A stretch of DNA of 64,000 nucleotides from Marinilabiliaceae bacterium (GTDB lineage: Bacteria; Bacteroidota; Bacteroidia; Bacteroidales; Marinilabiliaceae): NCBI GenBank assembly GCA_009777175.1, contig WRMI01000001.1, forward strand, positions 1 to 64,000, in the 5' to 3' direction. Of this stretch, positions 33,160-50,470 are shown piece by piece; the first letter of the stretch is position 1, and each line of letters starts with the position of its first letter. A model generated the notes under the pieces. The model was not told the DNA's origin and searched no databases. It worked only from the letters and a program-made list of their open reading frames with translations. The position numbers and the translations under genes were made by a program.

Positions 33160-33872
33160 ATACAGGAGTCAAATAGTGTTTTGTAATTTATTTTAAAATG
33201 GCACATTTTCAGATTCCTCATTTCACTACGTCTCATTCGGAATGACGAATTATTACGTTGAACAGTTCAGTTTCCGTTGCGGCACTACCGCTGCGGAAAC
33301 TTGTCTCAACAAAATGAATGATATGGTCATTCCGAGTTTAGTGAGGAATCTTTGTCTGCGACATTTTACACATAACTTTAAAGTAGGTCTTTTTTTGCAT
33401 AAAGTGCACAATTACAGAAAATCCACAAAGATTAATTACCCTATTTTACTCATCAAAATAATGAAATGCACACAGATAACACAGATGCGACAGAATTTCA
33501 CAGATAATAAAGATTTTTATATCGGGCATTTTAACCTATATTACTCATAAAAGTTAAGGCAACCGCAAGTGTTGCCCCTTCAATGTTGGGTACCGTTGTG
33601 TGTGCGACCCTTGCGGTCGCATAATTACCATCCCAAATAATATTGTAGGGGCGAGGCTTGCCCTCGCTTTTTTTTATTTAGGCAACCGCAAGGGTTGCCC
33701 CTACAATGGTTATCTCCATATTATTAAGGGCAACCGCAAGGGTTGCCCATACACACACCGTTAAAAGATATAAAATATTTGCTTTATGAATAATGCAGGC
33801 TAAAATAGTCCCTTCAGTGACTATTTTTTATTAACTGCGGGCTTTAGCCTGCAGCAATATATGAATAATGCA
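33160..33872. repeat. Repeat-rich region with a composite REP element
   Basis: No convincing gene. Holds TTCCTCATTTCACTACG... and ATTCCGAGTTTAGTGAGGAA (about 33212-33350), a CACAGAT half-palindrome (33471-33515), then five GGGCAACC/GCGACC-type hairpins (about 33556-33752). Of this, 33594-33772 is the inverted counterpart of 50236-50412. TTATGAATAATGC occurs at 33784 and ATATGAATAATGC at 33859. AATAGTCCCTTCAGTGACTA with a following T-run (about 33806-33830) sits inside a GCAGGCTAAA / TTTAGCCTGC pair and may terminate transcription of metK or from the plus strand. Confidence 0.8.
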
Positions 33873-35122: not shown

Positions 35123-35187
35123 AATAATATATAAAATAAAGGTTTAATACTATTGTTAATTATTTTTGTGGAGGGGGGTAAAAAAAA

Positions 35188-35241
35188 ATGCATTTTAGCA
35201 ATTTTTTAAGTGGTTGCAAGCAGCCAAATCCTTCCACTTCA
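35188..35241 (-). ncRNA. SAM-II-like riboswitch upstream of metK
   Basis: On the minus strand the P1 stem AAGTGG (35234-35239) / CCACTT (35208-35213) encloses a loop with GGATTT, then GCTTGCAA. After the stem come AAAAAATTGCTAAAATGC (down to 35190) and a T-run. The order GATTT ... TTGCAA, P1 3' strand, A-rich stretch, GCTAAA is that of the H-type pseudoknot SAM-II (metA motif) aptamer. The palindrome AAAATGCATTTT followed by T could terminate transcription at the 3' side. Confidence 0.75.
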
Positions 35242-35276
35242 ATAATTTAAAAATTAAAATATCATGAAAAACGCCG

Positions 35277-35308
35277 CAAAAGTATTGTTATTTTTTCTAT
35301 TTACCAAA
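35277..35308 (-). promoter_or_regulatory. metK promoter
   Basis: On the minus strand TTTG (35305-35308), 20 bases, TACTTTTG (35277-35284). The predicted transcript starts just before the SAM-II-like element, leaving a leader of roughly 150 bases. Confidence 0.7.
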
Positions 35309-35504: not shown

Positions 35505-36668
35505 ATGAAACAATACTTAAAAAAAAGGAGGTGGAAATTTTTTCTTATTCTGGGAGCGGTTGTTATCAGTATCTTTTCTCTTTTATATACGAGTCGTCTT
35601 TCAAAAGAACTGAGCTCTGAGGTACATAAAAGAATGAAAATATGGTCGTTAGCATATAATAAACTTGCTAATGATCAATATACGAGTGATGACTTCGAAC
35701 TTATCCTTGAAATAATTACCACAAATACCAATATCCCTGTAATATTAACGGATATCGAAGGCAATGTGGTCGAACACAGAAACATCGATGTTCCCGCCGA
35801 CAAGCAGGAAAAACATCTTCAAAAAGTTCTTTCAAAGATGAAAAAAGAGAGAGAGCCTGTTATAATCAGCCTTGGCGATGACGATAAACAATACCTTTAT
35901 TATAGTGAATCACTATTAATATCAAAGCTTCAGTGGTTTCCTGTTGTGCAATTATTTATTGTTTTTGTTTTTATGATAATTGCTTACACCGCATTTAGCA
36001 CTGCTCGCCGCTGGGAACAAGATCATGTTTGGGTAGGTATGGCTCGCGAAACTGCACACCAACTCGGCACACCAACCTCATCCCTCTTAGGGTGGATGGA
36101 CATTTTAGAACTAAAACAATGCGACACAAAGTACATTAATGAGATGCGATTTGACATTAAAAGACTTTTGACAATTACCGCACGTTTTTCAAAAATTGGC
36201 TCTAAACCCGAACTCGAAAATGAAAAAATTATTGAAGTCGTAGAGCAAATGATAGAGTACTTGCGAAATCGCTCATCTAAATTAGTAACTTTTTCTATTA
36301 AAAACGATATTCAAAATGATTTTGAAATTAAAATGTGCCGTCCCCTTTTTGAATGGGTCATTGAAAACATTTGCAAAAATGCAATCGATGCGATGGAAGG
36401 GGAGGGCGCAATTGATGTCCATATTTTCGAACAAAAAGAAAAATTAATTATTGATATTTCGGATACTGGAAAAGGAATCGCTCGAAACCTGCAAAAATCT
36501 GTCTTTAAACCCGGATATTCAACAAAACCAAAAGGATGGGGATTAGGACTTACTCTCGCTAAAAGAATTGTAGAACAATATCATAATGGAAAACTTTTTA
36601 TTCCATCCTCAACAACAAAGAAAGGAACTACTTTTAGGATTTTGATACCTTTAGTCGGTAACGAGTAG
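35505..36668 (+). CDS. Membrane sensor histidine kinase
   Basis: 387 residues. Membrane helices about 12-29 and 146-165 enclose a periplasmic sensor of about 115 residues with no recognised domain. The HisKA-like box is MARETAHQLGTPTSSLLGWM-like, with H185. The ATPase domain shows ENICKNAIDAMEG (N box), ISDTGKGIA (G1) and GWGLGLTLAKRIVE (G2). No HAMP or receiver domain is present and no response regulator is nearby, so it is an orphan kinase. Its ligand is unknown. Confidence 0.93.
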   Translation: MKQYLKKRRWKFFLILGAVVISIFSLLYTSRLSKELSSEVHKRMKIWSLAYNKLANDQYTSDDFELILEIITTNTNIPVILTDIEGNVVEHRNIDVPADKQEKHLQKVLSKMKKEREPVIISLGDDDKQYLYYSESLLISKLQWFPVVQLFIVFVFMIIAYTAFSTARRWEQDHVWVGMARETAHQLGTPTSSLLGWMDILELKQCDTKYINEMRFDIKRLLTITARFSKIGSKPELENEKIIEVVEQMIEYLRNRSSKLVTFSIKNDIQNDFEIKMCRPLFEWVIENICKNAIDAMEGEGAIDVHIFEQKEKLIIDISDTGKGIARNLQKSVFKPGYSTKPKGWGLGLTLAKRIVEQYHNGKLFIPSSTTKKGTTFRILIPLVGNE

Positions 36669-37859: not shown

Positions 37860-38921
37860 ATGAATAAAACCATTTTGACAATTATTTGTTCGGCGGCAAT
37901 TATTTTGTCGGCGAATGCGCAACGTGGCAATATAAAACAAGATGAGGCATTACGTCTCTCTAAATTGCCTTTAAAATGTTTGCAACAAGAATATCCTAAC
38001 AAATTAGGACAAACTTTGCTTGACCGCAGCGAACTTGCCGAGCCTCACCAATTACATCCGGCATTCTACGGCTGTTTTGATTGGCATTCGTCCGTTCATG
38101 GACATTGGATGCTTGTAAAAATTCTGAAATTGTTTCCAAATGTAGAAAACAATAAAGAAATACGTCTGAAATTAAGCGAAAACATTTCAGCAGAAAACAT
38201 TGCGGTTGAAGTTGCTTATTTTGATAGAAAACATGAAAAATCGTGGGAAAGGACTTATGGCTGGGCATGGATACTAAAATTAACCGAAGAACTTAACACA
38301 TGGAACGACCCATTCGCTCGAACATTAGAAGAAAACCTTCAACCGTTAGTGGACAAAATTTTAGAACTCTATTTTGATTTTTTACCAAAATTAAATTATC
38401 CTATTAGAGTTGGCGAGCACTCAAATACCGCATTTGGGTTAAGTTTTGCGTGGGACTACGCTAAAACAACAAGAAACGACGAGTTGATGACACTTATCGA
38501 AACTGTGGCATTAAATTTTTATTGGAGCGACGAAGGGTGCCCTATTGACTGGGAACCAAACGGTTTCGACTTTTTATCTCCATGCTTAGAAGAAGCCGAC
38601 TTAATGCGGAGAATACTACCAACCGAAGAGTTCGAAGAGTGGCTACAAACCTTTTTGCCACAATTAATCAGAGCAGATTTTATTCTCCTTCCTGCACAGG
38701 TTTCTGATAGAACAGACGGAAAATTAGTTCATATTGACGGATTAAATTTCAGTCGCGCAAGATGCCTCAACGAAATTGCTAAAACTTTGCCTAAATATGC
38801 CTTCCTCAAAAAAATTGCCGAAGATCATATTAAACATAGTTTGCCGGAAATTGTTGACGGTAGTTATGAAGGTGAACATTGGTTAGCAACTTTTGCACTA
38901 CTTGCATTAATTAGTTTTTAG
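37860..38921 (+). CDS. DUF2891 secreted protein
   Basis: 353 residues with a signal peptide ending SANAQ (about 20). FYGCFDWHSSVHGHWMLVK, TYGWAWILKL, RVGEHSNTAFGLSFAWDYA and SPCLEEADLM are the conserved segments of DUF2891. The regular helices and His/Trp-rich pockets suggest an alpha/alpha-barrel enzyme, but no reaction is known. Its stop lies at the start of a TTAGTTGTCAGTTGTCAGT repeat. It follows the acyltransferase gene by 33 bases and may share its transcript. Confidence 0.88.
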   Translation: MNKTILTIICSAAIILSANAQRGNIKQDEALRLSKLPLKCLQQEYPNKLGQTLLDRSELAEPHQLHPAFYGCFDWHSSVHGHWMLVKILKLFPNVENNKEIRLKLSENISAENIAVEVAYFDRKHEKSWERTYGWAWILKLTEELNTWNDPFARTLEENLQPLVDKILELYFDFLPKLNYPIRVGEHSNTAFGLSFAWDYAKTTRNDELMTLIETVALNFYWSDEGCPIDWEPNGFDFLSPCLEEADLMRRILPTEEFEEWLQTFLPQLIRADFILLPAQVSDRTDGKLVHIDGLNFSRARCLNEIAKTLPKYAFLKKIAEDHIKHSLPEIVDGSYEGEHWLATFALLALISF

Positions 38922-50224: not shown

Positions 50225-50470
50225 AATCAAATATGTAATATCGTTTAACGGTGTCTGTATGGGCAACCCTTGCGGTTGCCTTGAATGATATGGGATATAA
50301 ATTGTAGGGGCAACCCTTGCGGTTGCCTAAAAAAAGGGCGAGGGCAAGCCTCGCCCCTACAATGCCATATAGGATGGTAATTTTGCAACCGCAAGGGTCG
50401 CAAAAACAACAATACCCAGATATATGTGGCATGCTGCGAGACAATGAATAGTATTTATGAATAATGCCGT
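50225..50470. repeat. Composite REP element, inverted relative to 33594-33772
   Basis: Hairpins GGGCAACCCTTGCGGTTGCC (two), an AGGGCGAGGGCAAGCCTCGCCC hairpin written here in parts (stem AGGGCGAGG / CCTCGCCC, loop GCAAG) and a GCAACCGCAAGGGTCGC copy. The order and the linkers ATTGTAGGGGC, GGATGGTAATTTTG and CCGTTAAACGATATTA-like ends match the other locus in reverse. It ends in TTATGAATAATGC (50455-50467). Confidence 0.85.

Follow-up and report, generated by a model that had tools for sequence, protein, structure and literature searches.

The stretch of DNA analysed here, called the window, is 64 kb long, and the feature under study lies on its minus strand, 5′ of a gene for S-adenosylmethionine (SAM) synthetase, metK. 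The metK product has many solved homologs, for example 7r3b and 1fug, and its nearest named relative is the MetK of a Marinilabiliaceae metagenome-assembled genome (79% identity). The start of metK lies ∼62 nt 3′ of an aptamer, and the parts of the leader are collected in Table 1. Elsewhere in the window, positions 35505–36668 encode a divergently transcribed membrane histidine-kinase-like protein in which Pfam found HATPase domains only and no recognized HisKA, and positions 37860–38921 encode a protein that consists almost entirely of DUF2891 behind a signal-like N terminus.

Table 1. Features of metK and its leader, in window coordinates
Feature	Position	Strand	Basis or remark
−33 promoter box TTTG	35305–35308	−	pattern TTTG-N20-TACTTTTG
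−7 promoter box TACTTTTG (TAnnTTTG)	35277–35284	−	pattern
SAM-II (long loop) aptamer	35185–35243	−	RF01726, 64.3 bits
P1 5′ strand AAGUGG	35234–35239	−	sequence; alignment of 40 aptamers
GAUUU, loop L1	35226–35230	−	sequence; AUUU nearly invariant in alignment
UUGC, P2b pseudoknot 5′ strand	35216–35219	−	pairs with GC-U-AA
P1 3′ strand CCACUU	35208–35213	−	sequence; alignment of 40 aptamers
GCUAAA, P2b pseudoknot 3′ strand with unpaired U	35194–35199	−	invariant in alignment
Competing hairpin AAAAAU.UGC[UAAAAU]GCA.UUUUUU	35182–35207	−	uses GCUAAA strand; "terminator" of the preliminary description
Anti-P1 element CCcUCCAC	35168–35175	−	pairs with GUGGAaGG of P1 5′ strand (35237–35230); in leader minimum free energy (MFE) fold
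AAUAAUU, outer extension of anti-P1 helix	35158–35164	−	pairs with AAUUAUU (35247–35241); MFE and duplex fold
metK, S-adenosylmethionine synthetase, 415 aa	33875–35122	−	three S-AdoMet_synt Pfam domains; solved homologs

The two promoter boxes together form the pattern TTTG-N20-TACTTTTG (35308–35277), which we take to be of the Bacteroidota primary sigma type, and transcription would start near 35271. A preliminary description of this DNA had placed a promoter upstream of the aptamer, and the pattern bears it out: the TAnnTTTG box occurs in the 80 nt that precede the aptamer in 89 of 106 leaders, where 7.5 would be expected, and the full two-box arrangement, with TTTG 17 to 22 nt before TAnnTTTG, in 27 of the 106 (0.26 expected).

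An Rfam scan of the whole window returned two above-threshold matches, one tRNA and one to RF01726 (SAM-II long loop). The latter runs along the full length of the model (1–60 of 60) at 35243–35185 on the minus strand, with a score above the 44-bit gathering cut-off (Table 1) and an E value of 4.4e-10 for all of Rfam against 64 kb. Against RF00521 (SAM_alpha), the model with which the preliminary description had proposed to check its SAM-II-like riboswitch, the aptamer scored 20.0 bits, below the gathering cut-off of 36 bits, so that the check fails with RF00521 and passes easily with RF01726; the aptamer is thus the Bacteroidota long-loop form. SAM-V gave no match at its gathering score in the same scan, and no SAM-I (RF00162) was found in the organism's own genome, which holds a single copy of RF01726. 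Within 35308–35182, every sequence motif listed in that description was found at its place on the minus strand. The full-length match and the metK context in relatives strongly support, at the level of sequence, the identification of the element 5′ of metK as a long-loop SAM-II riboswitch.

The aptamer was read on the solved SAM-II layout, in which we take UUGC to pair with GC-U-AA and the GAUUU of L1 to form the third strand of the SAM-binding triplex. This layout fits the window better than a P2 register pairing GAUUU with AAAUU, which was rejected. P1 has no mismatch in any of the 40 aligned aptamers, and its inner variable pair, U-A in 33 and A-U in 7, shows covariation; the helix is intact in the window. 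The pseudoknot helix P2b (UUGC with GC-U-AA) is likewise formed in 40/40, but being invariant gives no covariation evidence. Both P2b and the AUUU third strand are present in the window, and the pseudoknot pairing, whose absence had been named as grounds for abandoning the riboswitch, is in place. Among relatives each of the three P2a pairs has changed in both strands, with 69% of cells paired; in the window, as read from the alignment, P2a is degenerate and retains two G-U wobble pairs only. When partners were slid by 1 to 3 columns as a register control, pairing in the 40 aptamers fell from 92% to 26–54%. The window also carries a U two positions before GCUAA, giving ATT instead of AAT or AGT, a state seen in 1 of 80.

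RF01726 matches were found in 52 of 61 genomes (60 relatives and the organism's own) and, in a phylum-wide search, in 46 of 297, and metK lies directly downstream at 82 of the 83 oriented riboswitch loci. The preliminary description, which had treated SAM-II as occurring in some Bacteroidota cases, thus overstated its rarity; within the Bacteroidales it is the norm. Among 80 named metK loci from GTDB genomes, 58 were picked out by a simple motif pattern, which is loose enough that a few of its hits may be wrong; they include loci of Marinilabiliaceae, Bacteroides, Parabacteroides, Porphyromonas, Flavobacterium, and Chryseobacterium. One relative has, in addition to a normal metK copy, a weak second RF01726 match (L082, G038:C14:87192-87256) that scores 32.7 bits, below the cut-off, and is not followed by metK.

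Reports of SAM-II from the Bacteroides group date from 2005 (PMC1273637) and 2007 (PMC2258182), Corbino et al. 2005 (PMC1273637) listing a case from Bacteroides thetaiotaomicron, and the long-loop form RF01726 was described from Bacteroidetes and marine sequences by Weinberg et al. 2010 (PMC2864571). The riboswitch itself is therefore not new but an ordinary, well-conserved representative of a known class, and SAM feedback on SAM synthetase by such a class is expected. The window resembles RF01726 in its full-length match above the cut-off, Bacteroidota host, hairpin with pseudoknot, and SAM-gene context; the only differences found are the U in place of A or G two bases before GCUAAA and the weak P2a. 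It shares motif order and pseudoknot with the RF00521 SAM_alpha/metA element but differs in its low score with that model, in preceding metK rather than metA, metZ, or metX, and in the lack of a clear terminator. SAM-V has a nearly identical ligand-binding core (PMC6061858) but, unlike the window element, a P3 helix and an overlap with the Shine–Dalgarno sequence. In the literature searched, we found no description of the output mechanism of the metK SAM-II family. What is fresh here is the comparative support for a second, alternative helix within the leader.

In the MFE fold of the window leader P1 is absent, and GUGGA/UCCAC, GG/CC, and AAUUAUU/AAUAAUU pairings join the P1 5′ region to positions 35175–35158; such fold energies leave out the pseudoknot and cotranscriptional folding. 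For the window alone this alternative fold is moderately better than chance (z of −1.7 to −1.8), 4 of 100 mononucleotide shuffles being equally good. A contiguous-helix test within the window's own family was weak (z = 2.3), and, of 64, 12 other leaders have platforms that pair with the window P1 region better than its own platform does. In a swap test across 107 leaders, the P1 5′ region of each leader was matched against the downstream part of the same leader and of the others, and the own pairing was better (z = 5.5, 0 of 20,000 permutations). Leaders with a GUGG-type P1 gave z = 4.9, whereas the test was not significant for the GAGG type (z = 0.9), in which it is silent because the P1 region barely varies. 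The permutation ignores the tree, and the guard against relatedness is provided by four decoys, two from promoter or upstream regions and two from coding sequence, all of them null (z = 0.9, 0.1, −0.3, and 0.1). The aptamer loop, meant as a fifth decoy, gave z = 3.96, but it overlaps the pseudoknot strand and the P1 3′ strand and so is not a true decoy. Matched changes on the two sides of the helix are seen in relatives in the pairs AGUGGAUGGA/UCCAUCCGUU and GUGGAGGGAU/GUCCCUUUAC and further in GUGGAUGG/CUAUCCAC and GUGAAAAG/CUUUUCAC. By mean z, the complete leader is structured (−2.06), whereas the first 60 nt 3′ of the aptamer, folded alone, are not (−0.26). This comparative sequence evidence suggests that related leaders have this alternative fold in common, in place of a conventional terminator hairpin.

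The GCUAAA strand also has a predicted alternative pairing. Across the family its pairing with the next 45 nt exceeds that of shuffles (z = 5.1); relatives possess cleaner equivalents of the window hairpin that lack a T-run, such as GCUAAAAUGCGAUUUUAGC, and leaders with a GAGG-type P1 have an equivalent hairpin, GCUAAAG...CUUUAGC, also without a T-run. We read this as the competing hairpin of the ligand-free state. Its 5′ arm holds the UGC of the pseudoknot, and the hairpin therefore cannot form with SAM bound.

The mechanism that we propose builds on four observations: which aptamer this is, the gene that it precedes, the pattern of the promoter, and the comparative signal in favor of the alternative helix. 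At low SAM, the P1 5′ strand (GUGGAaGG) would pair with the downstream C/U-rich element (CCcUCCAC), the GCUAAA strand would be kept in its own hairpin, and metK would be made. At high SAM, the ligand would bind the pseudoknot, composed of P1 and UUGC/GC-U-AA with GAUUU as third strand, and thereby withdraw the P1 5′ strand and GCUAAA from their alternative pairing; the 3′ half of the leader would be left largely single-stranded, and metK expression would drop. That this copy binds SAM, and that binding turns metK off, we infer. An OFF switch of metK built from a SAM-II aptamer and a competing anti-P1 fold is, leaving the Rho step out of account, a reading that we hold with good confidence, and the riboswitch very probably allows the bacterium to turn down SAM synthetase when SAM is abundant.

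The drop in metK would be due not to an intrinsic terminator but to premature Rho-dependent termination or to decay of the leader. We favor this account with low confidence, and control of translation, in which the SAM-bound fold would alter access to the metK start region, is the main rival, itself a possible reading though not a likely one. Translational SAM-II cases exist, in metX and in Sinorhizobium meliloti metA (PMC9373788), and most leaders here have no intrinsic terminator. Against translational control, the distance from the start of the aptamer to the ATG is long and variable, from 65 to 342 nt, and masking of the start codon was rejected as a candidate, the start region being predicted to be almost equally open in full and aptamer-removed leaders (0.47 vs. 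0.45 across 64 leaders; in the window, 0.44 for both). Composition was likewise rejected as evidence for a Rho site. In the window platform C outnumbers G by 13 to 2, but metK leaders with no detected SAM-II, a background from which the window's own genome was left out, show a C-over-G bias that is equally strong (C:G ratio of 1.56, vs. 1.50 with SAM-II).

An OFF switch whose output is an aptamer-overlapping intrinsic terminator is improbable. The preliminary description had seen a palindrome and T-run at this place, and they are there: the palindrome AAAATGCATTTT runs into a T-run of nine T. SAM-II riboswitches are mostly considered transcriptional (PMC6061858), and terminator-like hairpins occur in a few relatives, for example L025 and L135. 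The polarity is nonetheless wrong, since SAM binding prevents the hairpin, which takes the GCUAAA strand, and as a terminator it would make an ON switch for metK rather than an OFF switch. It is also weak, at −5.0 kcal/mol, a stability equaled in 13 of 200 shuffles; a scan of the window leader for intrinsic terminators did not call the palindrome and T-run, and no GC-rich hairpin with a U-run formed in the ligand-bound state was found there. Terminator-like hairpins were found in 7 of 107 leaders, against 1.7 expected, so a few family members may use a terminator and most do not, and the T-run is not conserved among relatives. On polarity, weakness, and poor conservation we rejected a terminator role for the hairpin; of the transcription control of SAM synthetase proposed earlier, the SAM-II element before metK stands, but control by an overlapping terminator is not supported. 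A decayed aptamer that has lost SAM binding, to which the rare ATT before GCTAA and the poor P2a might point, is most improbable, every family-invariant nucleotide being kept and the 64.3-bit score lying well within the range of over-cut-off relatives (48.5–73.2 bits with RF01726).

Extended to the family, the reading of an OFF switch with a competing anti-P1 fold would make the metK SAM-II riboswitches of Bacteroidota share a common terminator-free platform, with the anti-P1 helix and the GCUAAA hairpin as the ligand-free state and with SAM freeing the C/U-rich strand so that Rho stops transcription; taken whole, this is a speculative and rather doubtful proposal. The alternative helix offers a modest lead on how switching may work in bacteria mostly without Shine–Dalgarno sequences and, here, without clear terminators.

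The window also contains repeats. Downstream of metK, at 33554–33756, are three direct copies of a palindromic repeat of ∼32 nt (GGCAACCGCAAGGGTTGCCCCTACAATG), with a related inverted segment at 33592–33661 and another match to its core at 50305–50316 on the minus strand; it looks like a REP-type intergenic repeat. At 33194–33368 lies an imperfect inverted repeat with 34-nt, AGTTTAGTGAGGAATCT-like arms that are 71% complementary and 107 nt apart, possibly a small nonautonomous element.
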